Origin: Paraprevotella clara YIT 11840
GTDB lineage: Bacteria; Bacteroidota; Bacteroidia; Bacteroidales; Bacteroidaceae
Length of the DNA: 64,000 nt
Assembly (NCBI RefSeq): GCF_000233955.1
Contig: NZ_JH376598.1
Span: 1 to 64,000, forward strand
Direction of reading: 5' to 3'
The position numbers and the translations under genes were made by a program. The notes below the pieces were generated by a model. The model had not been told where the DNA came from. It saw only the letters and a program-made list of their open reading frames with translations, and made no database searches. This document shows positions 31,337 through 46,010 of the stretch, in pieces (position 1 is the first letter of the stretch; the number at the start of each line of letters is the position of its first letter).

Positions 31337-31345
31337 TTAGCAACC
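31291..31345 (+). repeat. attC-like repeat 1 (array head, left arm truncated)
   Basis: Stem GAGGAT (31297-31302) with ATCCTC (31325-31330). The left core reads GAAC in place of TAAC, with no partner arm before it; the IS91 end abuts it. Confidence 0.65.
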
Positions 31346-31361
31346 ATAATGAGAAAAGAAT

Positions 31362-31979
31362 ATGACAACAAAAAAATATGCAGATTATATTGAGAAACAA
31401 ACACGAGCAATATACAACATAATGCTTGAACCTATCTTTGGCGAATTTATTATTCATCTAAATGCGAAGAAAATAGGTGTTTTGTATCAGAATGAATGTT
31501 ATCTTTTGCTTACTGATAAGGGGAAAGAATTATTACCCCATGCAAAAGTATGCCGTCCTTATAAAAATCCACCCGGAGAAAAGGATTTCATTTTGGTAGA
31601 AGATACAGACAACAAAGAATTGCTTTGTTCTTTGTTTAAAGCTACTTATAAGGAATTATATGCTTGGCAGGATTTATTCTATGATATTTCCTATATATTT
31701 TCCTTTAATAGAGGGTTTATGGATGATATCGAAAGGTTATATGATAGTTATGTTGTCTTATTGTCTTATTCTTGGGAGAATGGCTTTTTAAAAGAACGAC
31801 CAATAGACACTAAAGGAAGGATTATAAAGTTTGAATTTCTTCGGAGAGACTTAACTTCTGAAGGGGAAAAATGTTTCTTTCCGTTTAGTCAAAAATTCAT
31901 TTCATACACAGACCGGACGCAAAAGATTCCTTCTGATAAGTTAATCAACAAATGGTTAAATGAGGTAAGTAACAAATAA
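31362..31979 (+). CDS. cassette 1: unrecognised protein
   Basis: 205-residue soluble protein with no signal peptide or membrane segment. The first 60 residues (Glu-Pro-Ile-Phe-Gly...Ile-Gly-Val-Leu-Tyr...Tyr-Leu-Leu-Leu) faintly recall a TfoX N-terminal fold, but I would not assign it. Rich in Phe, Tyr and Lys. First gene of the array; a role as an immunity protein is inferred only from position. Confidence 0.7.
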   Translation: MTTKKYADYIEKQTRAIYNIMLEPIFGEFIIHLNAKKIGVLYQNECYLLLTDKGKELLPHAKVCRPYKNPPGEKDFILVEDTDNKELLCSLFKATYKELYAWQDLFYDISYIFSFNRGFMDDIERLYDSYVVLLSYSWENGFLKERPIDTKGRIIKFEFLRRDLTSEGEKCFFPFSQKFISYTDRTQKIPSDKLINKWLNEVSNK

Positions 31980-31983
31980 AAGA

Positions 31984-32040
31984 GGTTGCTAACAAGCACC
32001 TATGCCACCTAACGGCGGCAAGCTGCAACCCATTAGTGTC
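31984..32040 (+). repeat. attC-like repeat 2
   Basis: Left arm GGTTGCTAAC pairs with the start of cassette 1 (TTAGCAACC, 9 nt). Inner stem TGCCACC / GGCGGCA. Confidence 0.85.
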
Positions 32041-32053
32041 ATATAAAATTATA

Positions 32054-32455
32054 ATGAAACAGATAATAGAAAAAATCAATAAAAGTTGGCACTCCAATCC
32101 TCCATGTGATCAACAAATAATGTTGAGTGTGGGAAAGTTGTTTCCATTACCCGATGATTATAAGGTATTTATGTTATGGAGTAATGGTGGAGAAGGTAAT
32201 ATTGGTAGTCAATATTTATCATTATGGAAGATTGAAGATTTGATGCAACTGAACAAAGAATACCAAATACAAAAGTATTTGTCGAAAAAATCTTTGGTTA
32301 TTGGCACTGATGGAGGCGATAATTGTATCGGTTTTTATTTTGGAGAACCTACTTTTATTTTTTTACAACCATTAGGAGATTTAGACTTATCTGAGAATAG
32401 ATTTTTATCCCAATCATTTACAGATATGTTCATTAATTGGTTGAGAATAAGATAA
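32054..32455 (+). CDS. cassette 2: SMI1/KNR4 (SUKH) family protein
   Basis: 133-residue soluble protein with the SUKH-1 pattern: Leu-Pro-Asp-Asp-Tyr-Lys-Val-Phe (about 32-39), Ser-Asn-Gly-Gly-Glu-Gly, then Ile-Gly-Thr-Asp-Gly-Gly and a C-terminal Phe-X-Asp-Met-Phe helix. SUKH proteins are common immunity proteins of bacterial polymorphic toxins. Start set at the ATG at 32054, because the in-frame GTG at 32036 lies in the recombination core. Confidence 0.82.
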   Translation: MKQIIEKINKSWHSNPPCDQQIMLSVGKLFPLPDDYKVFMLWSNGGEGNIGSQYLSLWKIEDLMQLNKEYQIQKYLSKKSLVIGTDGGDNCIGFYFGEPTFIFLQPLGDLDLSENRFLSQSFTDMFINWLRIR

Positions 32456-32460
32456 TAAAA

Positions 32461-32522
32461 TGACACTAACAAGCGGCTCAACCACCCCTGAAAGGTCGGT
32501 TAGCCACCCAACATTATCGGCT
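32461..32522 (+). repeat. attC-like repeat 3
   Basis: Left arm pairs 9-10 nt with the start of cassette 2. GGCT/AGCC-type stem with one extrahelical base. Confidence 0.88.
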
Positions 32523-32554
32523 CAATAAAATGTTCAATTTTTAATTAGAAGAAA

Positions 32555-32926
32555 ATGAATACTAAAACAAATGATTTAAAAGAAGTTATCAAAAGTTGGA
32601 TCATCAATATTGATAAAACAGAAGAATTGCCTTCTGATATTGTGGCTTTGAGCTTTAATCTTTATGAACCTTATGGTTTAGAAATGGTTGGTTCTACTTG
32701 GTTTGATGAAAAGGATGAAGATTGGGCATGTGATGAAAGTTTTGAACCAGCTCAAAGAAGTTGTCCTAATTTTGAAATTTCAGACAAACTAAAATGGGAA
32801 GAAGTGTTAGAAATAGTTGTAGCTATTCTTAAAGACTTACTCAATGAACTTGCTGACTTAAATATTTTTAGAATAGAACATATCGCAGTTGGATTTGTAG
32901 ATGGTGATTTGATTATCATTAAATAA
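32555..32926 (+). CDS. cassette 3: small acidic protein, unrecognised
   Basis: 123-residue strongly acidic soluble protein (many Asp and Glu; Trp-Phe-Asp-Glu-Lys-Asp-Glu-Asp-Trp near residue 48). A mixed alpha/beta pattern ends in a hydrophobic strand, Val-Gly-Phe-Val-Asp-Gly-Asp. High acidity and small size suit a toxin-neutralising protein, but no family is recognised. Confidence 0.7.
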   Translation: MNTKTNDLKEVIKSWIINIDKTEELPSDIVALSFNLYEPYGLEMVGSTWFDEKDEDWACDESFEPAQRSCPNFEISDKLKWEEVLEIVVAILKDLLNELADLNIFRIEHIAVGFVDGDLIIIK

Positions 32927-32933
32927 TCAATAT

Positions 32934-32991
32934 GCCGATAACACGCACCGCAATCGCCTAAACGGTGATTAGCTGCCGAACATTATCGACC
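32934..32991 (+). repeat. attC-like repeat 4
   Basis: Left arm GCCGATAAC pairs 8 nt with the start of cassette 3. Inner stem AATCGCC / GGTGATT. Confidence 0.88.
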
Positions 32992-33006
32992 TGAAAAGAA
33001 CAAGAA

Positions 33007-33681
33007 ATGAAACCAAGAGATATATTTATTAAAGCCTGCAATGAGATAGCTATTCCTTTTATCGCAATGGGATTTAAGCCGTCTAAAAATGGACAATGTT
33101 TGAAAAAGATTTCAAAAGACAAAAATTTGACTTTTGAAATATGGTTTCGTTCAAGTGTATATAATTCATCTTGTAGTGTGGCTATATATCCACTGATTAC
33201 GATTACCTGTAAAAACTTGAAAAAGTGGGTGCAAGAAGAGAATCTCAATGTCAATGATGATGGCTTAGTATATCATAATCATATTGGATACCTATCGCCA
33301 ATAAATCAATATCAATCTTGGGATCTTGCCGGACTAAGCTATGCTCCATCAATAAAAACAATAATTGATTTACTTGAAAAATATGCTTGTCCGATATTTG
33401 ATTTATTTGAGAATAGACAAATGGCTATTGACTTCATTACGCAACATGGCTGTTGTTTCAATCAATACACGAAAGACTCTCTCCTTGCCCTGCCATATAT
33501 GTTGAGATATGGTGAAAAGGAACAAGCCGAGAACTACTTCAATCATTACATACATTCAAGTAAATGTCGAAATAGATTTGTAAAAGCCTATTCTCAATTA
33601 GAAAAGAATGATGTAATTGATTGTGGATTAGATAATCGTTTTGTAATACTTGCATATAGTCAAAAACTAAAAATAAAATAG
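33007..33681 (+). CDS. cassette 4: DUF4304-like protein
   Basis: 224-residue soluble protein. The N-terminal 120 residues have the order of DUF4304: a helix, Met-Gly-Phe-Lys-Pro, then Cys-Leu-Lys-Lys-Ile and strands of Phe-Glu-Ile-Trp-Phe-Arg. The C-terminal 100 residues are helical. Similar in build to the cassette 7 product. Assignment is tentative; immunity role by context. Confidence 0.6.
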   Translation: MKPRDIFIKACNEIAIPFIAMGFKPSKNGQCLKKISKDKNLTFEIWFRSSVYNSSCSVAIYPLITITCKNLKKWVQEENLNVNDDGLVYHNHIGYLSPINQYQSWDLAGLSYAPSIKTIIDLLEKYACPIFDLFENRQMAIDFITQHGCCFNQYTKDSLLALPYMLRYGEKEQAENYFNHYIHSSKCRNRFVKAYSQLEKNDVIDCGLDNRFVILAYSQKLKIK

Positions 33682-33740
33682 GTCGATAACAAACAGATGA
33701 AACTTTTAAGGTGGTTTATCCGCCGAACATTATCAAATTC
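33680..33740 (+). repeat. attC-like repeat 5
   Basis: Left arm AGGTCGATAAC pairs 10 nt with the start of cassette 4. The arm overlaps the last two bases of the cassette 4 gene. Confidence 0.88.
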
Positions 33741-33755
33741 TAAAATAAAGCAGTT

Positions 33756-34271
33756 ATGAGTACAAAATATAACGAAGAAGCAGAAGATCTGATGTTTGAA
33801 TTATTCGACGAAGATGATTTTACAAAAGTCATATCATTTGTGGATAAGTATGGATGTGATTTTGTGGATAGAGATGGAAGAAATCTATTAATGAATTTCA
33901 TTGTCGAAGGAAAGAGTACGTTTGCCATTGAACTAATAAAGCAATACAAAATGAATGGTTTGAATTTGGATTTGCAAGATGACTCTGGGTGGACGGCGTT
34001 GCATTTCGCTGCTCAAGAGAATAGCCCGGAAATTATAGAACTTCTTGCAGGGTCAAAGGCAAACTTAAATATCCAAGAAGAAAATGGTCGTACCCCGCTA
34101 TTCATTGCCATTTTTGATAGAAATGACAAATCTGCGATTACATTATTGGAAAATGGTGCAGATATAACAGTGAATAATAATTCAGGTGTTTCTCCAATGT
34201 CATTTGTAACGAAAAAAGTAAAGAAATGGATAAATGAGAATTTGATAACAAACAGCAAACCGACTGAATAA
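33756..34271 (+). CDS. cassette 5: ankyrin-repeat protein
   Basis: 171 residues with three to four ankyrin repeats between about 45 and 155 (Asp-Gly-Arg-Asn-Leu-Leu; Ser-Gly-Trp-Thr-Ala-Leu-His-Phe-Ala-Ala; Asn-Gly-Arg-Thr-Pro-Leu-Phe). The acidic N-terminus precedes them. The last residues (Asn-Ser-Lys-Pro-Thr-Glu) are read from the attC-like repeat. Ankyrin proteins occur as immunity partners in toxin loci; the partner is unknown. Confidence 0.8.
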   Translation: MSTKYNEEAEDLMFELFDEDDFTKVISFVDKYGCDFVDRDGRNLLMNFIVEGKSTFAIELIKQYKMNGLNLDLQDDSGWTALHFAAQENSPEIIELLAGSKANLNIQEENGRTPLFIAIFDRNDKSAITLLENGADITVNNNSGVSPMSFVTKKVKKWINENLITNSKPTE

Positions 34272-34297
34272 GTGGAACGCTGCCAAACATTACCAAT
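34238..34297 (+). repeat. attC-like repeat 6
   Basis: CAGC...GCTG class. Left arm GAATTTGATAAC pairs 11 nt with the start of cassette 5. Holds the stop codon of the ankyrin gene. Confidence 0.9.
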
Positions 34298-34312
34298 AAT
34301 ATAAAATTAAAA

Positions 34313-34606
34313 ATGAGAAATAAATTAATTGATGAATTGGAGAAAATGATAGAATTACTACATCAAACAGGTTGGCATAAACAAGCGGTTTGGTATGAGA
34401 ATAAGTTGAAACTAATAAAAGAAGGCGAAGAAGATTGTGAATCATTTTATCAAAATCTCCATGAAATTGATGCCTCACTTTCAGGCATTGGTTCGTTCTC
34501 TGATCTACCAATGAAACAAAAATTTGTCTCACTACAATGGAATTTGTCAGAAAGGATTCATCAATTAATTTTAGAAAACATTGGTAACAATCACCTAAAC
34601 TGCTAA
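34313..34606 (+). CDS. cassette 6: small helical protein, unrecognised
   Basis: 97 residues, almost wholly helical by composition, acidic in the middle (Glu-Gly-Glu-Glu-Asp). Resembles the small DUF6966-type proteins of toxin-immunity arrays, but I cannot confirm this. The last eight or so residues are encoded inside the attC-like repeat. Confidence 0.62.
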   Translation: MRNKLIDELEKMIELLHQTGWHKQAVWYENKLKLIKEGEEDCESFYQNLHEIDASLSGIGSFSDLPMKQKFVSLQWNLSERIHQLILENIGNNHLNC

Positions 34607-34635
34607 ACGCAGTTAGCTGCATCCCATTATCTGCC
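34580..34635 (+). repeat. attC-like repeat 7
   Basis: Left arm ATTGGTAAC pairs 8 nt with the start of cassette 6. Inner stem AACTGC / GCAGTT. Confidence 0.88.
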
Positions 34636-34661
34636 CAATAATATGAACTAAAAAAAGTGAT

Positions 34662-35351
34662 ATGGAAACTAAAGCGGAAGTCCTAAAATACATGTTTACA
34701 AGAATACAAGAGATGCTTCCTGTAAATGTGGTCAAAGCAAAAAAGAATAAAGACTACTTTACTTACATAGTGGAAAACGATTGTAGTATTGAGTTTTACT
34801 TTCAAACAACCCAAGGTGGATATGCCGGTAAAAACACTTTTTGTATGGGTGTATCAGCTAAAATAAAGAATCCATATTTATGTAGTCTTGTATTAGAACC
34901 ATTAAATAAAAAAGACGCTGGTGGTAACATCATAGTTTGCTTTGATAATAATATTGATTGGTTTAAGCAGCATCTAATGGATATGGATTATTTTTTCGGG
35001 AATAAGAGTGACAAGACTCCTAACGTTGAGAGATTCTTAAACGATTTGAAAAAGGATTTTTTTCCGTATATCATACCTTTTGTCAAACAATATACAAAAA
35101 TTATAGATTTTTACTCAAATTCGGGTCATATTCAACATATATATGCAGATAAACAGTTTAGCTTAGGAGTAATCTGTTCTCTCTTGTGCAACCATGAAGA
35201 GTTCATTGAAGAAACTTTGGTTCCATTAGCCAAAGCAAGTGAAGGAGGTTGGATATTTAGAGAATTTTTTAAGTGCACAAACTACGTTACCGATATAGTT
35301 GAGCCGATTAAGAAATATGTCGCAGAGAATAATATCCATTTTGAACAATGA
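34662..35351 (+). CDS. cassette 7: unrecognised soluble protein
   Basis: 229 residues; an alpha/beta N-terminal half (a Phe-Tyr-Phe-Gln strand, Gly-Gly-Tyr) and a helical C-terminal half with Trp-Ile-Phe-Arg-Glu-Phe-Phe-Lys-Cys near 200. Length and order recall cassette 4 (DUF4304-like), without clear identity. No signal peptide. Immunity role is inferred from the array. Confidence 0.65.
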   Translation: METKAEVLKYMFTRIQEMLPVNVVKAKKNKDYFTYIVENDCSIEFYFQTTQGGYAGKNTFCMGVSAKIKNPYLCSLVLEPLNKKDAGGNIIVCFDNNIDWFKQHLMDMDYFFGNKSDKTPNVERFLNDLKKDFFPYIIPFVKQYTKIIDFYSNSGHIQHIYADKQFSLGVICSLLCNHEEFIEETLVPLAKASEGGWIFREFFKCTNYVTDIVEPIKKYVAENNIHFEQ

Positions 35352-35363
35352 GAAGAATAGAAT

Positions 35364-35426
35364 GGGCAGATAAAAGCGGATTAATTGCTCTCGAAATGGT
35401 CGGTTATCCACCAAACATTATCCGTC
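35364..35426 (+). repeat. attC-like repeat 8
   Basis: Left arm GGGCAGATAA pairs 10 nt with the start of cassette 7. The core has AAAAG where the others have AACAAG, a single-base change. Confidence 0.85.
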
Positions 35427-35441
35427 AAAATAAAAAATAAA

Positions 35442-35855
35442 ATGGAACTTGAATTTAACAATAAATCAGAATCAATTACAGCTAAGGATATAGCTGATGT
35501 TGAGCGGAAAAACAAATTTATTTTCCCGCAGGAAATCAAATCGTTCCTTCTTGCCAATAACGGAGGTCAACCAAATAAAACGATATACACTCAAAATAGT
35601 CAGGATTATGTGGTGGATTTCTTTCTGCCCATAAAGTCCACAGAATTTGAAGACTTGACGTATTCGGCGACAATAACTGATTTGAGTGATATAATCCCGA
35701 ATACTGTAATACCATTTGCTATAGATCCATTCGGCAATTATTTCGTTTTTGACAAAGCTGAAGGTAAAATCTATTTCTTGGAAATGGAAGAAGTAGCTCT
35801 TTCCTTATTGGCGAGTGATTTTGAATCGTTTATTTCATCATTAAAAAAGGAATGA
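35442..35855 (+). CDS. cassette 8: SMI1/KNR4 (SUKH) family protein
   Basis: 137-residue soluble protein. Clear SUKH pattern: Asp-Ile-Ala-Asp-Val-Glu (about 16-21), Phe-Pro-Gln-Glu-Ile-Lys-Ser-Phe-Leu-Leu-Ala-Asn-Asn-Gly-Gly (about 29-43), Val-Ile-Pro-Phe-Ala-Ile-Asp-Pro-Phe-Gly-Asn-Tyr and a closing Phe-Glu-Ser-Phe-Ile helix. Each half of the cassette 21 protein has the same fold. Start chosen at 35442, as an earlier in-frame ATG lies before the cassette boundary. Confidence 0.87.
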   Translation: MELEFNNKSESITAKDIADVERKNKFIFPQEIKSFLLANNGGQPNKTIYTQNSQDYVVDFFLPIKSTEFEDLTYSATITDLSDIIPNTVIPFAIDPFGNYFVFDKAEGKIYFLEMEEVALSLLASDFESFISSLKKE

Positions 35856-35913
35856 GACGGATAACAAGCGGATCAATCTCATTTAATGATGATTATCCAC
35901 CAGACATTAATCG
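35856..35913 (+). repeat. attC-like repeat 9
   Basis: Left arm GACGGATAAC pairs 9 nt with the start of cassette 8. GGAT / ATCC stem. Confidence 0.88.
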
Positions 35914-35922
35914 CTAAAAACA

Positions 35923-36252
35923 ATGGCAAGTATAGAAGAATATAAAAAACGAATACAAGAATTTATATATTGTTTAGTCCGTAAAGACTATCAAGCCGTA
36001 AATAATCTAATGTTGGCTAATAGTGTGCCTATTCAAGATATACGGCGAGTTATAGAGGAATACGGTTGTACAATTATACCTCTACCTGTAAAAGCGTTTG
36101 ATTTGGCATTGTCCTATCAAATTTCCGATAAACAGGTAGATATATACATTCCTCTATGGAGTGAAGAAGAAGGTCAAAGCGACCTCACTCTTTCGCTTTC
36201 TTGTTTCAAAAATGAGAATAAGATAAAAATAAATGACTTAGAGGTTTTGTAA
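35923..36252 (+). CDS. cassette 9: small alpha/beta protein, unrecognised
   Basis: 109 residues. Helical first half, then strands with Ile-Pro-Leu-Pro-Val-Lys-Ala-Phe-Asp (about 53-61) and Asp-Ile-Tyr-Ile-Pro-Leu-Trp-Ser-Glu-Glu-Glu-Gly (about 74-85), ending in a Lys-Ile-Asn-Asp-Leu-Glu strand. Looks like a compact single-domain family that I have no firm name for. Confidence 0.65.
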   Translation: MASIEEYKKRIQEFIYCLVRKDYQAVNNLMLANSVPIQDIRRVIEEYGCTIIPLPVKAFDLALSYQISDKQVDIYIPLWSEEEGQSDLTLSLSCFKNENKIKINDLEVL

Positions 36253-36254
36253 AA

Positions 36255-36312
36255 CGATTAACAAATGGCTTAACCGCCCCAAAAAGTCGGTTAGCCACTG
36301 ACATTAGCAATC
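36255..36312 (+). repeat. attC-like repeat 10
   Basis: Left arm CGATTAAC pairs 7 nt with the start of cassette 9. GGCT...AGCC class. Confidence 0.88.
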
Positions 36313-36332
36313 AACGAAATAAATATAAAACA

Positions 36333-36767
36333 ATGAGTGAAATTAAAGAATACCGTCCAATTAACGAGGACGAACGAATTGAAATAGATCAGCTTGCAGC
36401 TAAAGGCTTAGTCCTTATTGGCTTGCAGGAAAGTGCTGAATCCTCTGTCATCCTTGATGGCATAAAGAACTATCTCAATAATTTTGAAAGTTCAGATGAC
36501 GAGGAAATTACTGATAGAGCTTATGAGTTAGGTTCCCTGTTAGGAAACACTATCCAAAAGCACTATGGATGGAACTGGTTTTGTGTAGAGGAAAATACAG
36601 ATGATTCTTTTCATTGTGTTGCCTCTAATAAAGAACGAGCCTGCTGCGCCTGTCATGAATATATATACTCCATATTGACAAAACAGCATTCCAATAATGT
36701 AAAGTTGCTGTTCAATATGATAAATAAAGATTATCCAAAAGAATGGCATTTCATGTTGCTTTCTTAA
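36333..36767 (+). CDS. cassette 10: DUF3806-like protein
   Basis: 144 residues. The middle reads Ala-Tyr-Glu-Leu-Gly-Ser-Leu-Leu-Gly-Asn then Tyr-Gly-Trp-Asn-Trp (about 63-82), which fits DUF3806, followed by three Cys (Cys-Cys-Ala-Cys) and a helical end. Soluble and acidic. Family match is moderate; immunity role by context. Confidence 0.65.
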   Translation: MSEIKEYRPINEDERIEIDQLAAKGLVLIGLQESAESSVILDGIKNYLNNFESSDDEEITDRAYELGSLLGNTIQKHYGWNWFCVEENTDDSFHCVASNKERACCACHEYIYSILTKQHSNNVKLLFNMINKDYPKEWHFMLLS

Positions 36768-36769
36768 AC

Positions 36770-36829
36770 GATTGCTAACAAACAGCAAGCCGACTGAATA
36801 AGCGGAACGCTGCCAAACATTAGTCGCTT
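36770..36829 (+). repeat. attC-like repeat 11
   Basis: CAGC...GCTG class. Left arm GATTGCTAAC pairs 9 nt with the start of cassette 10. Confidence 0.9.
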
Positions 36830-36847
36830 GAAAAATAAAAAAAGAAA

Positions 36848-37753
36848 ATGAGTAAGATAATGATATGGGTCGGTCAATTCGATTCCGAAGCTGACTTTGA
36901 GAAATATATGGATCAATCGGCTTTCCGTCAATGGTGGAAAGATTATGATGAAGACAATAAGGAACTTCGTTGCCAGTTCTGTAAAGAGCTTGGTGTAATG
37001 GACTATGACGAAGATTCTCTTATTATGAAATATTCTTCTGAAGGACTTGAGAATCTGTTGAATGTTATTCCGGCAGACACAGATAAAATCAAGGAAATAC
37101 TAAGAGCGAAAAAAATAACTGTCGCAAATGCGGCAATCATGTATAATAGCCATGAGGGTATATCATTGCAGAAAGCGACGAATACCGTATCGGTATCCTT
37201 CTTGGGCTCTTTTATTTTTGAACTTAATCCGACTGGTACAACAGCCTCGACTGCCGGTTTGAAATATATGACATGGATTGGGCATACCGATAAAAATGAA
37301 ACCGAATTTATGGAGTATTTTAATCAAGAGCAATACCTCAAGGAGTTGGAAGCGTATGAATCCGGTCAGAGCAAAAAGCGTCCCAATCCCGAACATCGTT
37401 GTCAGTTCTGTAAAGACTTAGGTATAAAATTCTATTATCCAGAGTTTTTAAGAATTAAAATTGACAAAACATGTACAATGAATTCTGTTCAATTAATTCA
37501 ATCAGTTATAATAGACAATAATGTACTTGATTGTTGGGTTGAAAAATCATTAAATAGAAATGGCCTTAATAATGCCTCAAATAATTGTACTTTCTGCTAT
37601 ATCCCGAATGGTTTTAGAGATAAAAAGAAAAACCAAAAAGTTTTTATTCTTAAAGAAAACATGAAAGGTCATCTTGGCATACCTAAAAAATATGTTGAAG
37701 AGATTGCGGACTATAATGGTCTTCGTTACTTATCAACATTTGAATGGGAATAA
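36848..37753 (+). CDS. cassette 11: double-domain Imm22-like immunity protein
   Basis: 301 residues made of two Imm22-like domains. The first (1 to about 135) starts Ile-Trp-Val-Gly-Gln-Phe-Asp-Ser and has Cys-Gln-Phe-Cys-Lys-Glu-Leu-Gly followed by Tyr-Asp-Glu-Asp; the second (about 140-301) repeats this as Thr-Trp-Ile-Gly and Cys-Gln-Phe-Cys-Lys-Asp-Leu-Gly. The CQFC pair in each may bind metal. Paralog of cassette 14; the first 167 nt of the two cassettes, leader included, are identical. Imm22 proteins protect against polymorphic toxins (family knowledge). Confidence 0.75.
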   Translation: MSKIMIWVGQFDSEADFEKYMDQSAFRQWWKDYDEDNKELRCQFCKELGVMDYDEDSLIMKYSSEGLENLLNVIPADTDKIKEILRAKKITVANAAIMYNSHEGISLQKATNTVSVSFLGSFIFELNPTGTTASTAGLKYMTWIGHTDKNETEFMEYFNQEQYLKELEAYESGQSKKRPNPEHRCQFCKDLGIKFYYPEFLRIKIDKTCTMNSVQLIQSVIIDNNVLDCWVEKSLNRNGLNNASNNCTFCYIPNGFRDKKKNQKVFILKENMKGHLGIPKKYVEEIADYNGLRYLSTFEWE

Positions 37754-37812
37754 GCGACTAACAAACAGCAAACCGACTAAAAAGCGGAACGCTGCCAAAC
37801 ATTATAAACTCT
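37752..37812 (+). repeat. attC-like repeat 12
   Basis: CAGC...GCTG class. Left arm AAGCGACTAAC pairs 10 nt with the start of cassette 11. Confidence 0.9.
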
Positions 37813-37830
37813 GGATATAAGGATGAATGT

Positions 37831-38322
37831 ATGAATAATCAATATGCAGTTTTAATAAGTAGTGAAATCCCTGAACTTGGAGAATTGGACTTACTGCGCT
37901 CAATTTACCGAGAGTTGAATGGTTATATGGAAGATTACAATAACCAAATCAACTTAGATGATTTGGGAGATTGGAAACTTCTCATACAGATAAATCTTCG
38001 AAATACTAATGGGGGGATTGGGATTTTCAAACGGGCAAAACGTTTCCCATCTAATAAAGAGTTTGAAATATCTATTTCCATACCAGTACCAAATTTGGAG
38101 GAAGCACGCTATGGAATATCCGATATGACGGGGATTTATATTCCTTTAAATATTAAAAACTTCTACATTCTTTCTCCATGCTTTAGTAAATATGATAATT
38201 TGTATCATTATATTCTTGAGAGTGCAAAACAAACCATAGATGCAGCTTTTACTTATGGCTTTACATGTAACGGCAAAAGAATAAAGAAAAAAGAGTTTAT
38301 AACAAACAGCACTACCGACTGA
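37831..38322 (+). CDS. cassette 12: Imm9-like immunity protein
   Basis: 163 residues, soluble. The stretch Phe-Pro-Ser-Asn-Lys-Glu-Phe-Glu-Ile-Ser-Ile-Ser-Ile-Pro-Val-Pro (about 72-87), then Tyr-Gly-Ile and a late Phe-Thr-Cys-Asn-Gly-Lys, is what I remember of Imm9; I am only moderately sure. The C-terminal Thr-Asn-Ser-Thr-Thr-Asp is read from the repeat. Confidence 0.62.
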   Translation: MNNQYAVLISSEIPELGELDLLRSIYRELNGYMEDYNNQINLDDLGDWKLLIQINLRNTNGGIGIFKRAKRFPSNKEFEISISIPVPNLEEARYGISDMTGIYIPLNIKNFYILSPCFSKYDNLYHYILESAKQTIDAAFTYGFTCNGKRIKKKEFITNSTTD

Positions 38323-38353
38323 ATAAGGCGGAACGCTGCAAACCATTATCCGC
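38292..38353 (+). repeat. attC-like repeat 13
   Basis: CAGC...GCTG class. Left arm AGAGTTTATAAC pairs 11 nt with the start of cassette 12. Contains that gene's stop codon. Confidence 0.9.
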
Positions 38354-38383
38354 AATAGTAAAACAATTAAAAATTAAAAGATT

Positions 38384-39774: not shown

Positions 39775-39834
39775 AGCGACTAACAAACGGATAATTTCCC
39801 TTAAAGGTCGATTATCCACTGGACATTATAATAA
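39774..39834 (+). repeat. attC-like repeat 15
   Basis: Left arm pairs 10 nt with the start of cassette 14. GGATAAT / ATTATCC stem. The arm overlaps the last base of the cassette 14 stop codon. Confidence 0.88.
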
Positions 39835-39851
39835 ATAAAAATCAAAGCATT

Positions 39852-40415
39852 ATGGCAAAATATGAGTTGGGGGCAATTTATAAAATTAATGGTCGAAGTG
39901 GTGAATTGTATTATGTAAGACTTTTGACAAACGACTGTTATGGCGTTTTTTCATCATTAGAAGGCGAACTGAATGAAGAGACATTTGCTCAAACCCATTA
40001 TCGTCTCTATTTTAGCTGTAACTCTTTTCCTATAAAACGAGGTATATGGGAAAAAGTCGTATCATCTCCAAACTGTACAGATATTGCACGGTGGCAACGC
40101 CCTCAATATTTAGCTAATTTTGCTAATTTCAACATGAAATTATTTCTTGATCAATGTAGAGTTTTTCATGAAGATGGGAACCTTTATCAATGTGAAAGTA
40201 AAGAGGAGTTTATTAGATTAGTAAAATCCGGTAAGATTTTATTTTGTTTTAATACTTATGAAATTATACCAGACTTTCTAATGAGGTATTACAAGGATTT
40301 CCCCAATAGCTATATTGTAAATAAAGATTTTATCCATAGTGGAACTTTGGAATACCAAAAAGAACAAACAAATGTATTAAAAGAATTAGGCTTTGATATT
40401 GGAAACTTATTATAA
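39852..40415 (+). CDS. cassette 15: Imm26-like protein
   Basis: 187-residue soluble protein. The N-terminus (Leu-Gly-Ala-Ile-Tyr-Lys-Ile, Tyr-Tyr-Val-Arg-Leu-Leu, Tyr-Gly-Val-Phe) follows the beta-barrel pattern of Imm26, with Trp-Glu-Lys-Val (about 67-70) and Trp-Gln-Arg-Pro after it. The C-terminal 90 residues are less typical. Moderate confidence in the family name. Confidence 0.6.
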   Translation: MAKYELGAIYKINGRSGELYYVRLLTNDCYGVFSSLEGELNEETFAQTHYRLYFSCNSFPIKRGIWEKVVSSPNCTDIARWQRPQYLANFANFNMKLFLDQCRVFHEDGNLYQCESKEEFIRLVKSGKILFCFNTYEIIPDFLMRYYKDFPNSYIVNKDFIHSGTLEYQKEQTNVLKELGFDIGNLL

Positions 40416-40467
40416 CAAGCGGCTGAACATTCCTATAAAGGTTAGTTAGCCACCAAACATTACCGAT
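40407..40467 (+). repeat. attC-like repeat 16
   Basis: Left arm TTATTATAAC pairs 9 nt with the start of cassette 15. GGCT...AGCC class. The arm overlaps the end of the gene. Confidence 0.87.
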
Positions 40468-40480
40468 TAACAATGACAAT

Positions 40481-41092
40481 ATGAAATGGTATAAAATATA
40501 CTTGAATGGAGAAAATCGAATATGGAAGAAATGTATTACATATTCGTGGGAGTTTATATATGAAGATAAAGAAATTAATTTTCAAAGAATTATAGATTCA
40601 TCTTCATCGGAAAGGTATCAGATAAAAGCTCTTATCAAAGGTAAGGGGCTAATCGCTAAAAGTATATCTGAATTTGGGCAAATAAGAATGCCAGAATTTG
40701 CTGAAGTCAGCCATTTGTTTCTTGTCAGAGAAGATATATTGAATATAAACGAATTGTCCTCCATAAAAGGAATTTCTTTAAAAAGGGTTTCAGTACATGG
40801 AGATTTCCCACTTGATTATATGGCAATTATTTTTAATGAAGTAATTGATTGTGTTGACAATATTCATTCCAAACGAGAAGAATTTGAATGCATGAGTACA
40901 CTTGTGTTAGATATGTCTAAAATACCTTCATCTGTAGATGGGTTCTTTTTAAAAGGGTGGAATAAATACGGTTTTTATAAAAACATTGTCAATGAAAATA
41001 TGAAAATGCAATTACTTCATTTGTATAAGGCAAATGAGTTTTTAAAATTTAAAGAAATAGAAATAAATGGCACATCGGTAACAAATGGATAA
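40481..41092 (+). CDS. cassette 16: unrecognised protein
   Basis: 203 residues, soluble, alternating strands and helices. The N-terminus is Tyr-Lys-Ile-Tyr-Leu-Asn-Gly-Glu-Asn and the middle contains Leu-Val-Arg-Glu-Asp-Ile. The layout recalls Imm11/DUF1629 proteins but no decisive motif is visible. The gene ends inside the repeat (Ser-Val-Thr-Asn-Gly). Confidence 0.65.
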   Translation: MKWYKIYLNGENRIWKKCITYSWEFIYEDKEINFQRIIDSSSSERYQIKALIKGKGLIAKSISEFGQIRMPEFAEVSHLFLVREDILNINELSSIKGISLKRVSVHGDFPLDYMAIIFNEVIDCVDNIHSKREEFECMSTLVLDMSKIPSSVDGFFLKGWNKYGFYKNIVNENMKMQLLHLYKANEFLKFKEIEINGTSVTNG

Positions 41093-41130
41093 ATCTCCGT
41101 AAGAGAGATTATCCGCCGAACATTAGTTGC
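41074..41130 (+). repeat. attC-like repeat 17
   Basis: Left arm ATCGGTAAC pairs 8 nt with the start of cassette 16. GGATAAATCTC / GAGATTATCC stem, almost continuous. Confidence 0.9.
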
Positions 41131-41149
41131 GGTCAAAAACGAAATAAAA

Positions 41150-41845
41150 ATGAATGTAATATCAGAAAAAGAATATTCGTTTTCAAATGTGCTTTTTTGG
41201 AACGTAATGTTACATCATCATATTCGAGCCTTTGATGAAGAAAGGGATGCGAATTTTGATGAAGTATGGGATGAAGAACTTGTACCAACATTGTTGGATG
41301 AAAAGAAGTACAAGAAATATTGGTGTTGGCTATCTCAAATTGATTTGAAAACATCCGAAAATCAAGGTGAAATAGAAAACCCAAGAACTCTAACACTTCC
41401 TATCGGCAGCGATATTATATTGACAATAGAATTTCATCCTTGCTGTACATATTATTTTTTGAATGACACTTTAATCGGGGAAGTTAGTGGCAACTTTCAC
41501 TTGAAGTATCTCACATATTCGGAATTAATGAGGATTACAAAAGAGAAATATGGAGATGTACTGTTCCATTTACTCTTACCTTTGTCTGCAATCAGGGAAC
41601 AAGAAAAAGACATAGCACTTAATGAAATAATCCAACGATTGCAACAAATTCCCTTATTCAAGGAACATTCCGCATATATAGGTAAATGTATCTTGAATGG
41701 ATTATTAATATCCAACTCTGACATACAAGAAATTCCCAAGATAGGAACGATATGTACAAGCAATCATTCATATAGAAATGCTTTGGTATATGATGATGAA
41801 AGGCAGGAAATAAAGGAGCTAAATATCCTTTTATCGAGATTATAA
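41150..41845 (+). CDS. cassette 17: unrecognised protein
   Basis: 231-residue soluble protein. Begins with an aromatic helix (Phe-Trp-Asn-Val-Met-Leu-His-His-His), has a Cys-Cys pair in a strand near residue 103 (Phe-His-Pro-Cys-Cys-Thr-Tyr-Tyr), then a long helical part. No family is recognised. Candidate new immunity protein by context. Confidence 0.65.
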   Translation: MNVISEKEYSFSNVLFWNVMLHHHIRAFDEERDANFDEVWDEELVPTLLDEKKYKKYWCWLSQIDLKTSENQGEIENPRTLTLPIGSDIILTIEFHPCCTYYFLNDTLIGEVSGNFHLKYLTYSELMRITKEKYGDVLFHLLLPLSAIREQEKDIALNEIIQRLQQIPLFKEHSAYIGKCILNGLLISNSDIQEIPKIGTICTSNHSYRNALVYDDERQEIKELNILLSRL

Positions 41846-41849
41846 ATAT

Positions 41850-41912
41850 GCAACTAACAAGCGGATTAATCTCCTATAAAGGTCGATTATCCACAGAACA
41901 TTATCAACTTAT
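41850..41912 (+). repeat. attC-like repeat 18
   Basis: Left arm GCAACTAAC pairs 8 nt with the start of cassette 17. GGATTAAT / ATTATCC-type stem. Confidence 0.88.
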
Positions 41913-41914
41913 TA

Positions 41915-42376
41915 ATGAATAAAATGAAAAAAGACAAACATATAAAAGTGCTATTCCACTTGGAACAAGATGAAGATGGCTATCCACCATTTTCTATTGA
42001 AGGTTTGTGGTGCAAAAAGGCAAGTAATGATACCTATATTGTCGATAATGTGCCATTCTATACCTATGGAATCAGTTTGGGGGATGAGATATGTGTTACA
42101 GAAGAAGATGGCGAATATCATTTTCAATCCATAGTGAATCCCTCTGGAAATAGCACATTGAGGGTACATTTTAACGATAAACGTATGCAGATGGTCAGAG
42201 ACAAACTACTTGATATGGGATGCAAGGTAGAGATTTCTAATCTCTCTTCATTCGTATCCATAAATGTACCACAAGAAGTTTCCTTAAAAGTGGTCGAAGA
42301 TGTTCTGACCAATATGCAAAAAGAATGTGATAGTTTGGCTTATGAACATGGTGTTGTCAGACAAAATATAAGTTGA
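41915..42376 (+). CDS. cassette 18: DUF4265 protein
   Basis: 153 residues that fit DUF4265: Gln-Asp-Glu-Asp-Gly-Tyr-Pro-Pro (about 18-25), Glu-Gly-Leu-Trp, Tyr-Ile-Val-Asp-Asn-Val-Pro-Phe, Gly-Asp-Glu-Ile and Gly-Asn-Ser-Thr-Leu-Arg-Val. Cytoplasmic. DUF4265 genes are frequent in toxin-immunity arrays; activity unknown. An ATG at 41924 is an alternative start. Confidence 0.8.
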   Translation: MNKMKKDKHIKVLFHLEQDEDGYPPFSIEGLWCKKASNDTYIVDNVPFYTYGISLGDEICVTEEDGEYHFQSIVNPSGNSTLRVHFNDKRMQMVRDKLLDMGCKVEISNLSSFVSINVPQEVSLKVVEDVLTNMQKECDSLAYEHGVVRQNIS

Positions 42377-42430
42377 TAACAAACAGCAGATCGACTGAAT
42401 AAGCGGAACGCTGCCGAACATTATCGTTGT
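42368..42430 (+). repeat. attC-like repeat 19
   Basis: CAGC...GCTG class. Left arm pairs 12 nt with the start of cassette 18, the longest match of the array; the gene's stop lies in it. Confidence 0.9.
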
Positions 42431-42449
42431 CAACATTAGAATAAAAAAA

Positions 42450-42962
42450 ATGAAAACAATAGAAGATATGAAACTTGAATTATTGAGTGATAACTCAAAT
42501 AAGTTCATGCAGACTCTAATAGATTATGACATAAAAAGTAAAGACAAATATGGCAGTAATCTACTTCATTATTATATAATGAACTATGATAGTATTGTAC
42601 ATCCAGCAGGTGTGATTATATCCGAATTTATAAAAAAAGGATTGGATATAAATGATAAAAGAAAAGACGGACGGACTGCATTATATCTTTCTGTTCAGTG
42701 TCAGCTACAAGATATTTTTGAAATACTCCTGAATAGCAATGCAGATTTGGATATACAAAATGTAAATGGGAATACTCCTTTATAGGAAGCCGTTATGCGA
42801 TACCGTGGAGATGGCTTCTTTATCGAACAACTTTTGAAAAATGGGGCTAATCCCGATATAAAAAATAACTATGGAGTATCTCCTAAATCATTGGCAAGAA
42901 CTATCGCAAATTATGATGTAAGAAGATTCTTTAACAACGATAACAAACAGCAAACCGACTGA
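42450..42962 (+). pseudogene. cassette 19: ankyrin-repeat protein with internal amber stop
   Basis: One continuous frame of 170 codons with a TAG at codon 112 (42783-42785), right after Gly-Asn-Thr-Pro-Leu. The frame then goes on through a further ankyrin repeat (Phe-Ile-Glu-Gln-Leu-Leu-Lys-Asn-Gly-Ala-Asn-Pro-Asp) to a stop inside the repeat at 42960. Ankyrin repeats usually have Trp or another large residue here, and a TGG to TAG change explains it. The intact part (111 residues, 42450-42785) may still be made. Same family as cassette 5. Confidence 0.8.
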
Positions 42963-42991
42963 ACAAGCGGCACGCTGCCAAACATTAATCG
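42934..42991 (+). repeat. attC-like repeat 20
   Basis: CAGC...GCTG class. Left arm ACAACGATAAC pairs 10 nt with the start of cassette 19. Confidence 0.9.
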
Positions 42992-43002
42992 CTGAGAAAA
43001 AT

Positions 43003-43467
43003 ATGAATAATTGGATTGAAACATCAGGAAGCCCATTTGTCATTGTTGAGCAACAATATGCCCATCAATGGAAGGGTCAAGAAAACTACAATGCTATATG
43101 TAGCGTAACAGATTACTTGGGGAAAATCTATATAGACAATCATGTCTTATTGGTAATGGGAGATGAACCGATGGCTACACGCATAGTAAATAAAGATGGA
43201 GCAATTTTAATAATTCGTTGGAAGTATGCTCCCGATTATCTAACGGTGGAAAAACTTCTGGAGAATGATATAGTAACTGGGGCAGAACCGATAGAAGAAG
43301 TTGAAGTAAAATGGGATTCTACTGAATTAGTCCTATTTGATTCTTTGTCTCCCTATTGTGAAGCGTCGGTTAAAGTTTTTTTATCATTACAAAAAACATC
43401 TTGTATAATAAAAACTTATCTTTATCAAAAAGACGAAGTATCTTTAATAATACATTCAATCCAATAA
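43003..43467 (+). CDS. cassette 20: Imm21 immunity protein
   Basis: 154 residues. Typical Imm21 order: Trp-Ile-Glu-Thr-Ser-Gly-Ser-Pro-Phe (about 4-12), Trp-Lys-Gly, Asp-Tyr-Leu, then Leu-Val-Met-Gly-Asp-Glu-Pro-Met-Ala-Thr-Arg (about 49-59) and Ile-Ile-Arg-Trp. Single-domain cytoplasmic protein; neutralises a toxin domain not present in the window. Confidence 0.82.
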   Translation: MNNWIETSGSPFVIVEQQYAHQWKGQENYNAICSVTDYLGKIYIDNHVLLVMGDEPMATRIVNKDGAILIIRWKYAPDYLTVEKLLENDIVTGAEPIEEVEVKWDSTELVLFDSLSPYCEASVKVFLSLQKTSCIIKTYLYQKDEVSLIIHSIQ

Positions 43468-43470
43468 AGA

Positions 43471-43531
43471 CGATTAACAAGCGGCTCAACCTCCCCTTAA
43501 AGGTCGGTTAGCCACCAAACATTATCTGCCC
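43471..43531 (+). repeat. attC-like repeat 21
   Basis: GGCT...AGCC class. Left arm CGATTAAC pairs 7 nt with the start of cassette 20. Confidence 0.9.
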
Positions 43532-43540
43532 ATAAAAAGA

Positions 43541-44536
43541 ATGAATATGAAAATAGAATTAGAAAATTGCCAAAAAAGTCTTACTCTCAAAGATTTTGAA
43601 GAAATAGAGAGTAAATTGGGTTATGCCTTGCCGGAAAGACTGAAAGAGTTCTATTTACAATATAATGGAGGTTCTACGAAACAGATCGCAAGCATAAATA
43701 AATATCAAGAGGTGGAAATTGAAGATTTCTTCCCATTCAAATATAACAAGGATTTTAAGAATGACCCCAGATATACGGCAGAAGGCGAAACATTAGAGTT
43801 AAGAAAAGCAGGAGCTATATCTGATAGCATTCTTATTTTTGCTATGGAATCTACCGATGAAGGTCGGATTACCATAGACTTGGTTAATGGAAAGATCTAT
43901 CTTTACCCTATTGTGGGGATGCAAGATGTAATCTTCAATTTTGGAGAGCCACGACTTGTTGCAAATTCAATAGATGATTTCTTTGACAATCTCGTTGTTT
44001 TGGACGGGCACAAAGCAATTCCAGCAATAGAAGAAATCGAAGAGGGACAAACGGAGACAGCAGGTGTAATGCCTGAACTTTCGGACTGTTCGGCTTCGCT
44101 AACAAAAGAAGATATAAAGAATTTTGAGGTTGAGTTGAATGTAAAGATTCCGGCAGGCATGAAGAACTTTTACCTCAAGTTCAACGGTGGTATGCCATCA
44201 CCATATTGTTATCAACCGCAGGACGAGGATTTGGATCGGGTGGAGATAAATGCGTTCTTTCCGATAAAGGAACGCACCAATGCTTTTGAAACAATTGAAG
44301 TCATAGCCAAAGATATATGGAGTAGGAATTTAATGCCATGCAATCTGTTGCCTTTTGCTATGGATTCGGGTGGAAACTATTATGCGTTGAACTTGAAGAA
44401 TAAAAAGATTTACTATTACTTGACTGACGAGTGGGACGAAAACGCTTCAAGAGAATACAACTTTGAAACAAATACTCGTTACATCGCCCAGTCATTCAAT
44501 TACTTTATAAATCATTTCATCGAAGAAGAGGAATAA
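43541..44536 (+). CDS. cassette 21: tandem SMI1/KNR4 (SUKH) protein
   Basis: 331 residues with two SUKH domains, about 8-150 and 185-330. Each has the Leu-Lys-Glu/Met-Lys-Asn-Phe-Tyr-Leu...Asn-Gly-Gly motif (about 36-48 and 206-218), a Phe-Phe-Pro strand and a Phe-Ala-Met-(Glu/Asp)-Ser loop. A Glu-rich linker joins them. The duplication parallels that in cassettes 11 and 14. Probable immunity protein. Confidence 0.85.
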   Translation: MNMKIELENCQKSLTLKDFEEIESKLGYALPERLKEFYLQYNGGSTKQIASINKYQEVEIEDFFPFKYNKDFKNDPRYTAEGETLELRKAGAISDSILIFAMESTDEGRITIDLVNGKIYLYPIVGMQDVIFNFGEPRLVANSIDDFFDNLVVLDGHKAIPAIEEIEEGQTETAGVMPELSDCSASLTKEDIKNFEVELNVKIPAGMKNFYLKFNGGMPSPYCYQPQDEDLDRVEINAFFPIKERTNAFETIEVIAKDIWSRNLMPCNLLPFAMDSGGNYYALNLKNKKIYYYLTDEWDENASREYNFETNTRYIAQSFNYFINHFIEEEE

Positions 44537-44539
44537 AGC

Positions 44540-44600
44540 GGGCAGATAACAAGCGGATCAATCTCCTTTAATGATGATTATCCGCCGAACATTACTAACG
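44540..44600 (+). repeat. attC-like repeat 22
   Basis: GGAT...ATCC class. Left arm GGGCAGATAAC pairs 10 nt with the start of cassette 21. Confidence 0.9.
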
Positions 44601-44613
44601 ATAACAAATTTGT

Positions 44614-44982
44614 ATGAAAGTTTTTATTGGAGGTGAATTGGAACATAGTATTTCTGATAAGTTTCGTAAAGCAAGAAACTCTGTAATAGAATATATGGAT
44701 TGTCTATGTGATATTTCATATATTAATGAACTAAGTTTCTATGTATTCTGCTTAAAAGGATTTACTACAAATCCATTAAGTCGATATTCGAAAAAACGTA
44801 ATCGGATAGAATTGGAAATTCTACTCCCATTTGATAAATTTGAAACAGCAAATGATTCTCAATGTGTTGAGATATTGAAACAAAGTATTCTTGATGCTAT
44901 TGAGAACTATAAAAATAAAAACATTCCACAACAATATATTGATGTAATTGTAGAAAAAATGAAAGCATCAATTAATGAATGA
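44614..44982 (+). CDS. cassette 22: Imm44-like immunity protein
   Basis: 122 residues. Gly-Gly-Glu-Leu-Glu...Phe-Arg-Lys-Ala-Arg-Asn (about 6-22), then Tyr-Ser-Lys-Lys-Arg-Asn-Arg-Ile-Glu-Leu-Glu-Ile and Asp-Lys-Phe-Glu-Thr-Ala, follow the layout I associate with Imm44. Soluble alpha/beta protein with a helical end. Family name is moderately sure. Confidence 0.65.
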   Translation: MKVFIGGELEHSISDKFRKARNSVIEYMDCLCDISYINELSFYVFCLKGFTTNPLSRYSKKRNRIELEILLPFDKFETANDSQCVEILKQSILDAIENYKNKNIPQQYIDVIVEKMKASINE

Positions 44983-44985
44983 ATT

Positions 44986-45040
44986 CGTTAGTAACAAACA
45001 GCACTACTGCTTAAAGCGGAACGCTATTGAACATTACAGC
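44986..45040 (+). repeat. attC-like repeat 23
   Basis: CAGC...GCTA class, shorter than its relatives. Left arm CGTTAGTAAC pairs 9 nt with the start of cassette 22. Confidence 0.85.
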
Positions 45041-45041
45041 T

Positions 45042-45992
45042 ATGGATATAACGAATAGAATTATTGTCGCCTTACTGGAACGAATGAAAAGTAGAAACAA
45101 GAACTTTTCATTATCAAGACCTAAGTTTCATCGGTTGTTTCAAATAAATCCCGATGGCTACTTATGGTATGGCGAGAAACTGGAGCGGCATTTACTTAAC
45201 AAATATGGAGAATCGGCTGATACATTGAAATATCTTGATATATATTATTTCATTTCCAATATTGTGCGGTTGTATTACATGCCTAAAAATTCAAATTCGG
45301 AGGAAAACGAGTTTGGAAAGCTATACGCTTATGGCTCCATAATAGGGTTACACCGTTGTCATATTCCAGATAAGCGAATATATCTGAACCGATTGTTAAA
45401 TACTTTACTGTTCTGTTGTCCGACTTCTGAAGAATATATCCGTAGATTCCGCTGGCAAAAAAACGGTATATATTACAAATCGCAGGATGTGGAAGTTCTT
45501 ATTGCCGATACATTTACAGAAATACGGGAATCGGACAAACAATCAGAATCCATTGAAATAGTTGAGTCAATAGTCAATGAGACATACCGTTATCTGGTAG
45601 GCTCAAATACGGGGCTTCCATTTGTCCGTTCGGAAACTTTATTGCACTACAACCTGAACCCATCTGATTATATGTGGCTATATCAGCACGATAAGGAATT
45701 GTTTTATACTTGTCTTGATGCAGCAGCATTACAGTCGGAGATTTTCAGTTACAAGTCATTTGTGTACAATTTCAACCTGTATATTCTAAAAGACGCAAAT
45801 ATATTGGATGAATTGTCCAGATATTCCAAATGTTATGAAGCCGTTTTAGAACTGCTTTTCAAATCCGATTCAATTATGCAGAACTCTGTTATTCGGCAAA
45901 TCAAATTATGTAGAAATGAAGATACCATTAAACAGAATAACAGATTGGATGCTATTAACAAATGGCTCAACTCCCTAAACAAGATTGGTTAG
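45042..45992 (+). CDS. cassette 23: large helical protein, unrecognised
   Basis: 316 residues, nearly all helical, rich in Tyr, Leu and Arg, without signal peptide or membrane segment. Start set at the ATG at 45042, as the in-frame TTG at 45027 lies in the previous repeat. The last 14 residues (from Ala-Ile-Asn-Lys-Trp) and the stop are encoded inside the terminal repeat. Its cassette ends do not pair, unlike all others. Function unknown. Confidence 0.68.
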   Translation: MDITNRIIVALLERMKSRNKNFSLSRPKFHRLFQINPDGYLWYGEKLERHLLNKYGESADTLKYLDIYYFISNIVRLYYMPKNSNSEENEFGKLYAYGSIIGLHRCHIPDKRIYLNRLLNTLLFCCPTSEEYIRRFRWQKNGIYYKSQDVEVLIADTFTEIRESDKQSESIEIVESIVNETYRYLVGSNTGLPFVRSETLLHYNLNPSDYMWLYQHDKELFYTCLDAAALQSEIFSYKSFVYNFNLYILKDANILDELSRYSKCYEAVLELLFKSDSIMQNSVIRQIKLCRNEDTIKQNNRLDAINKWLNSLNKIG

Positions 45993-46010
45993 CCACAGAA
46001 CATTAAACAT
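45951..46010 (+). repeat. attC-like repeat 24 (array end)
   Basis: GGCT...AGCC class. The left arm GCTATTAAC does not pair with the cassette 23 start (TTACAGCT) beyond TTA. It is followed by a short echo, CATTAAACATTAG, then ICE backbone. Confidence 0.8.

Follow-up and report, generated by a model that had tools for sequence, protein, structure and literature searches.

A row of 23 small genes at 31337-46002 of the 64,000-nucleotide stretch analysed here (the window; Paraprevotella clara YIT 11840, contig NZ_JH376598.1, positions 1 to 64,000) lies inside an integrative and conjugative element (ICE). We consider it highly probable that this locus is an integron-like cassette platform, in which an Xer-like tyrosine recombinase is served by attC-like and attI-like sites, and that it keeps an immunity store of the type called recombinase-associated acquired interbacterial defence (rAID), movable by the ICE. 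According to the mechanism proposed here, the recombinase encoded at 28620-29738 would act on short hairpin attC-like sites, probably as single strands whose two stems are separated by one unpaired base, and also on an attI-like site directly behind its own gene. Every gene would move together with the site on its 3′ side, and the crossover would fall at [A/G]↓TT↓[A/C] (arrows mark the possible cuts). Excision as a circle would fuse the two complementary ends of a cassette into one long hairpin, insertion at attI would put the cassette first in the row, and the array would be a store of orphan immunity-type proteins that the ICE could carry as a whole between species.

All 23 open reading frames (ORFs) between 31337 and 46002 lie on the plus strand; they span 31362 to 45992, have lengths of 97-331 codons, and each is followed on its 3′ side by a hairpin-forming repeat of 45-50 nt, mostly TAACAA...CATTA, which closes the cassette. 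GC content is 0.337 in this region against 0.576 in 15000-28600 and 0.539 in 46003-64000, and it stays at 0.30-0.36 per 1-kb step from 31001 to 46000. ORFs, sites and GC content thus agree with the initial annotation, which had described 23 one-gene, AT-rich, plus-strand units closed by hairpins in a GC-richer ICE. As for the limits of the array, which it had drawn at 31337 and 46002, the 3′ limit is exact while the 5′ limit belongs upstream, because an additional cassette with an HUH gene (29781-31336) stands between the attI-like site and cassette 1. A structure model (R1) was trained on the 23 sites of the window, so that their recovery is by construction; scanning with it gave these sites and one weaker match at 31292-31338, every match being on the plus strand. 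A sequence-only profile of the same 23 sites gave 168 matches on the plus strand and 0 on the minus strand (E<0.01) in the window and 54 other loci; loci outside the window are designated below by L numbers. A chain search, which required complementary TTA../..TAA ends, C[A/G] preceding TTA and a site length of 36-52, linked 22 cassettes in a row (31337-44994); the reverse strand gave 2, and 20 letter shuffles gave 1-2. Rfam gave no match on 28000-47000 up to E 0.1, and a promoter scan of 29600-33000, which does not cover Bacteroides promoters, gave 6 sites against 10.5 in shuffles.

What do the two ends of a cassette have in common? Within one cassette, the bases behind the CATTA of its start and those ahead of the TAA of its end are reverse complements of each other. 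Past the TTA that both ends share, 22 of the 23 window cassettes have exact complementary runs of 4-9 nt, which reach at least 5 nt in 20 of them, and their sum is 141, a value attained by 0 of 100,000 permutations, the best of which gave 60. Runs of at least 5 nt between ends of different cassettes were found in 4 of 506 combinations, only between cassettes 7 and 21 or between the paralogues 11 and 14, and the two flanks of one single site are unmatched (mean run 0.6). Since the complementary ends belong to the same cassette, a circularised cassette would rebuild one extended attC-like hairpin. As the complementary arms imply, this circle form has a lower folding energy than the array form in 22 of the 23 cassettes, and in the remaining one the two energies are equal. 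The other loci were examined through the 89 cassettes that lie between two sites matched by the sequence-only profile: arms of at least 4 nt are present in 70 of them, against 3% of mismatched ends, and the summed arm run is 476, against 117 in the best of 20,000 permutations. The site itself was modelled with nine pairs in two stems separated by one unpaired base. In the window sites 81.6% of the cells are paired (at most 43.0% in slid controls) and changes on both sides of a pair number 36 against 12.6 in shuffles; in 62 sites from other loci the values are 86.3% (at most 42.3% in slid controls) and 80 against 29.7. These compensating changes lend support to the fold.

Inverted ends of 7-12 nt, TTA included, might also suggest that the units are small transposons of the type of miniature inverted-repeat transposable elements and the array is their landing hot spot, and a gene of the IS91 family is indeed present. 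Yet the ends vary by cassette, as the 4 matches in 506 combinations indicate, and one transposase would not recognise them; moreover, the units stand strictly head to tail, in accord with the 168 plus and 0 minus matches. We regard this explanation as very improbable.

Comparison with other loci indicates that single cassettes are gained, lost and reordered as units at one exact point. Twelve of the 23 window cassettes recur in other Bacteroidales at 93% or higher nucleotide identity over at least 85% of the longer cassette, mostly with different neighbours, and 46 of 190 cassette clusters occur in two or more loci. Where a cassette of the window has a counterpart in another locus, 14 cases show a different right neighbour and 2 the same one. 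Counted over pairs of all 37 loci, there are 57 differences and 18 agreements, 13 of the latter arising when L012 is paired with L014, L054 or L055, or L054 is paired with L055. Some order is kept, since the first six cassettes of L012 and L014 are alike and L013 has cassettes 7-8 and 22-23 as in the window. Four loci, L011-L014, come from four species and have 11,119 nt of upstream ICE in common with the window at 99.2-99.3% identity, and the array of the window is found in none of them; L014 holds eight window cassettes at 89-100% nucleotide identity, in the order 4, 21, 10, 19, 7, 22, 12, 14. The case of cassette 13 is illustrative: it stands between 12 and 14 in the window, it is missing from L014, where the junction is an exact CA↓TTA, in L013 its successor is cassette 22, and in L015 it occupies the attI position, its first 34 nt being all that the contig includes. 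The initial annotation had held that a fixed gene order in related ICEs would speak against its reading; L011-L014 and the neighbour counts show unit-level shuffling instead.

Can such shuffling be brought about simply by homologous recombination between similar intergenic repeats, the recombinase being a bystander or moving something else? The sites, at 45-50 nt and often 60-80% alike, would offer substrates for it, and part of the left breaks are found within the site and not at its end: in 161 high-scoring segment pairs (HSPs) of at least 93% identity and at least 200 nt, 77 of 89 left breaks lie within -55..+6 of the crossover, of which 57 are within 6 nt. Against it, breaks pile up at CA↓TTA, with HSP ends no more than 6 nt from the crossover in 57 of 89 cases on the left and 74 of 105 on the right, compared with 2.0% of random positions, and the 3′ site travels with its gene. 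Besides, each cassette keeps its own complementary ends although its neighbours differ, and cassettes start at attI, which escapes detection by the R1 site model. Homologous recombination is therefore an improbable explanation in our estimate, and the cassette platform served by a site-specific recombinase is followed below.

The attI-like site occupies 29739-29780 on the plus strand, the 42 nt behind the recombinase stop codon, and ends in ..TATAACG↓. The same sequence is found in relatives, where the first cassette starts with its TTA at this fixed point, mostly after ..TATAACG↓; thus an attI-like site lies beside the recombinase gene, where the cassettes begin, as in integrons. The base ahead of TTA at this point is G in 10 of 12 loci, but in the arrays, window included, 154 of 156 sites have A there, these sites being anchored on C[A/G]TTA or AATTA. 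The switch between G at attI and A in the arrays places the cut right of that base, and the HUH cassettes, which bring TTC instead of TTA, place it left of the third base. By these two switches the compared loci bound the crossover to [A/G]↓T↓T↓[A/C], which is the same place as the G↓TT cut of integrons, and unit movement at that position is what the comparison of loci suggests.

The proposed integrase (28620-29738, plus strand, 372 aa; PF00589, E 6e-41) has R223, K248, H312, R315, H338 and Y347, which are invariant in 21 aligned sequences including its own and which we take to be the catalytic set; it may well be the catalyst of cassette movement. It does not have the additional domain specific to IntI. 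Where IntI4 (2a3v) has 58 residues, the window protein has 15, and the insert is absent in 31 of 31 aligned recombinases, window's included. Of the 15 IntI rows fetched, 14 have it, and the remaining row is a wrong ORF. Its match to TIGR02249, 203 bits in two pieces, stays below the cut-off of 265. IntI above cut-off was found neither in the host genome nor in 16 array-bearing genomes, whereas 84 of the 296 genomes in the phylum sample have it. In a tree, 14 IntI rows form one clade apart from the 31 recombinase rows; since the branches of the two Xer rows are very long and a single IntI row covers 15% of the alignment columns, no sister group is assigned from it. Relatives of the recombinase at E <= 1e-60 are present in 64 of 393 genomes of the order, and attC-like sites, under strict filters, in 12 of 251 family genomes. 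Environmental relatives of 40-52% identity adjoin classic attC sites of about 125 nt, mostly YAAC...CGTT. A classic-attC profile gave 19 plus and 0 minus matches in 6 of 31 environmental loci scanned, those in L069 by construction because the profile was built from 4 L069 sites. Classic attC sites stand with an insert-less recombinase in L068, L069, L070, L083 and L090, and L081 has the sites and is outside the insert alignment; since five of the six loci are without the insert, the recombinase family accompanies both types of site. Reliance is placed here on the profile matches: in an environmental chain test, in which the reverse strand yields an identical chain by construction, only L068, L069 and L083 of 18 loci beat all their shuffles.

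The recombinase gene looks broken in three other loci where arrays or an HUH cassette persist beside it: in L027 (10001-11115) the frame changes near the end, in L026 (2379-3389) it stops at 283 aa, and in L121 (1140-1301) the match covers only the last 54 residues. L169, from viral_contigs, has a 99% identical recombinase and is more likely the same ICE than a phage.

The HUH cassette at attI (29781-31336, plus strand) contains a gene at 29846-31075 and its own hairpin site at 31291-31336. The gene product matches NF033538 (IS91 family) with 312 bits, the cut-off being 125, and the ends of the cassette, TTCAAGACAAT / ATTGTCTCGAA, are complementary at 10 of 11 positions; they contain CAAG and GAAC, target words of IS91. 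Close relatives (89-91% at the amino acid level) are found in L027, L041, L047 (two tandem units) and L121, so that six close copies are known in five gut loci, window included, five directly at attI and one behind another copy; the recombinase of L041 and L047 is only 49% identical to that of the window. Four distant relatives (51-58%) were found in 393 genomes of the order: those of L165 and L166 are beside an integrase, that of L167 is behind a classic attC, and that of L168 (about 1106-2913) is a cassette with complementary ends that may have been inserted outside an array, the 1.5 kb fetched around it having no integrase. Complementary ends are present in three of these four distant cassettes, and the contig of the fourth ends too soon. 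In L165, L166 and L168 a second small ORF precedes the HUH gene and has CxxC pairs, zinc-ribbon-like by eye. The HUH unit is best read, from these sequences, as a conserved cassette.

It might be asked whether the HUH gene, rather than the tyrosine recombinase, moves the cassettes, for it stands between attI and the array in the window and in four other gut loci. Most arrays' fetched loci, such as L011-L014, whose recombinases are 99.7-100% identical, have no HUH match, and close copies occur in just 4 of 251 family genomes; we find this explanation scarcely credible, and the same rarity led us to reject the idea that the HUH gene is a fixed part of the machine. A helper role for it in the movement of cassettes is speculation. 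A further possibility, to which we give only a small chance, is that Bacteroidales have a second integron lineage that does without the additional IntI domain, its attC sites being short in gut members and classic in environmental ones. In some of its arrays the first cassette would be an IS91-like HUH enzyme with a cut site overlapping the core of the site, and rolling-circle unwinding by this enzyme would yield single-stranded cassettes for insertion by the recombinase. If this is true, two enzyme classes are coupled in one capture machine.

Several points weigh against the integron-like reading itself. The internal sites have A, not G, before TT, and the recombinase is without the domain that PMC9668308 calls necessary for integron recombination. 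Another host recombinase could act in trans. Complementary ends are lacking in cassette 23 and in 19 of the 89 cassettes elsewhere; in several of these 19 weak-arm cassettes, by eye, an undetected site was skipped or the difference is one base. As for the fold, the 62 sites were drawn from structure-model matches, and RNAalifold alone gives no consensus structure and no pairs on their alignment. Two of five covariation measures are not clearly above shuffles in the window and 62-site sets: 110 and 42 of the 500 shuffles come as high in the number of pairs with changes on either side, and 134 and 177 of 500 in that of further pair types. Finally, the products of 9 of the 23 cassettes have no Pfam match.

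What is stored in the array? Of the 14 products matched by Pfam, 10 belong to immunity or SUKH families, 2 to ankyrin repeats, and one each to DUF7668 and DUF4265. Metabolic products, which the initial annotation had given as a second finding that would tell against it, are not among these 14; the immunity families it had listed were confirmed by Pfam for SMI1/KNR4, Imm21, Imm22 and Imm51, and not for DUF4265, which Pfam does not label an immunity family. The proteins of the array are, by annotation, of immunity type, and they may protect the cell that has them. Immunity and SUKH families are represented by cassettes 2 (32033-32513, site from 32467; SMI1_KNR4, SUKH-1), 8 (35418-35906, site from 35862; SUKH), 11 (36820-37801, site from 37759; Imm22 in two stretches), 12 (37802-38345, site from 38300; Imm9), 13 (38346-38852, site from 38808; Imm51), 14 (38853-39825, site from 39781; Imm22, the paralogue of 11), 17 (41123-41900, site from 41855; Imm19), 20 (42985-43521, site from 43475; Imm21), 21 (43522-44591, site from 44547; two SUKH-1 stretches) and 22 (44592-45033, site from 44992; Imm44). 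Ankyrin repeats are encoded by cassettes 5 (33730-34289, site from 34246) and 19 (42421-42984, site from 42941), the ORF of the latter having an in-frame stop after codon 111; DUF7668 is in cassette 9 (35907-36303, site from 36259) and DUF4265 in cassette 18 (41901-42420, site from 42377). Those without a Pfam match are cassettes 1 (31337-32032, site from 31990), 3 (32514-32982, site from 32939), 4 (32983-33729, site from 33687), 6 (34290-34626, site from 34585), 7 (34627-35417, site from 35371, with TAAAAG in place of TAACAA), 10 (36304-36819, site from 36776), 15 (39826-40459, site from 40413), 16 (40460-41122, site from 41079) and 23 (45034-46002, site from 45956). Cassette 23, the sole one in the window whose ends are not complementary, shares this anomaly with its 99.9% identical copy in L013. 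Some ORFs extend into the site of their cassette or into a degenerate version of that site (31934-31979, 34226-34271, 41047-41092 and 45947-45992), which then encodes a C-terminal tail, such as INKWLN in cassettes 1 and 23.

NCBIfam gave no match for eight of the nine Pfam-less cassettes, cassette 6 not being among the eight. An anti-phage defence theme was tried and rejected, as PADLOC was empty for the 10 cassettes submitted (the nine without a Pfam match and that with DUF7668). VipB (PF05943) had no match in the host genome, which is a weak test for a type VI secretion system. In other loci, 100 cassette ORFs of 150 selected cluster representatives were surveyed and 47 Pfam families were found; among the 25 listed, SUKH leads with 8 members, and Imm43, PoNi, Imm-NTF2, Imm11, Imm9, Imm5, Imm68 and TriTu are present together with leucine-rich repeats, ankyrin repeats and several DUFs.

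The rAID clusters are known from Ross et al. (2019), as cited in PMC12247911 and PMC12694586, and the former defines them by a tyrosine recombinase that precedes at least two genes pointing in one direction, the GC content of these genes lying below 41%. Here the recombinase at 28620-29738 is followed by 23 plus-strand genes with a GC content of 0.337. Other features of rAID are short genes, of about 100-300 codons, from predicted orphan immunity families, and conserved intergenic motifs; the genes of the window have 97-331 codons, 10 of the 23 fall into Pfam immunity or SUKH families, and the 23 sites are such motifs. The proposal that this is a rAID cluster on an ICE is supported by these features. 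In PMC12247911, rAID genes were co-expressed in E. coli with cognate type VI effector domains. On the side of the array nearer to the recombinase, the ICE encodes a DNA topoisomerase (24516-26615, minus strand; PF01131) and a 2040-aa ORF with helicase and weak methylase matches (17814-23936, minus strand). On the other side are a coupling protein (47853-49862, minus strand; TraG-D_C, T4SS-DNA_transf, YWFCY), a relaxase (49900-51045, minus strand; PF03432), a TraG P-loop conjugation ATPase (58504-60210, plus strand; PF19044) and a CTnDOT-type TraJ (61215-62294, plus strand; PF07863), and the transfer region also holds a group II intron reverse transcriptase with a maturase domain (56810-58519, plus strand). 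The ICE with its store would be transferred by such functions.

How does all this stand to what has been described? In the accessible parts of PMC12247911, PMC12694586, PMC10470768, PMC12632263, PMC12469244, PMC9668308 and PMC9024848, rAID sites are not described as attC-like or with a placed crossover; Ross et al. (2019), which stands outside this comparison, may already remark on the likeness to integrons. That paper aside, the literature searched gave no precedent for attC-type sites with a crossover bounded to [A/G]↓TT↓, for an insert-less recombinase family that is also beside classic attC arrays of about 125 nt, or for a cassette whose gene is an IS91-like HUH gene and which stands first at attI in all five gut loci with a close copy. 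The IntegronFinder 2 paper (PMC9024848) reports Salinibacter as a case of a Bacteroidetes bacterium with a complete integron. According to a 2025 preprint (PMC12247911), the origin of two gene copies per array is not yet clear and rAID biogenesis is an active research area; for this the present sequences supply a mechanism with exact junctions that can be tested by PCR. They also put in question the need for the IntI domain in attC recombination. Integron-type gene capture in Bacteroidales may have gone unnoticed because surveys seek IntI and the usual sites, while IntI is present in 84 of 296 phylum genomes and in 0 of 16 array genomes.

Among known elements, IS91 and ISCR resemble the HUH unit in having an HUH protein above the NF033538 cut-off, and they differ in that the HUH gene of the window is a cassette with its own attC-like site, inserted at attI or in an array. 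IS1111-attC elements and group IIC-attC introns are mobile elements tied to attC that target it from outside, unlike the HUH unit, which brings a site with it and seems to be mobile as a cassette. With rAID clusters, as far as the accessible texts describe them, the locus has in common the tyrosine recombinase, a series of short low-GC genes in one orientation, conserved motifs between them, orphan immunity families of the SUKH kind and an occurrence in gut Bacteroidales; unlike there, the motifs are read here as folded attC-like sites with a bounded crossover, accompanied by attI and an HUH cassette. From integrons it differs in that the integrase is without the IntI-specific insert and co-oriented with the array, and in that the window sites are only 45-50 nt long; compared with the attC core RYYYAAC...GTTRRRY, TAAC and the stem are present, but 154 of the 156 anchored sites have A before TT where the core has G. 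With integrons it shares attI beside the integrase, one-gene cassettes with a probably folded 3′ site and complementary ends, a crossover at the TT of the right core, and head-to-tail arrays.

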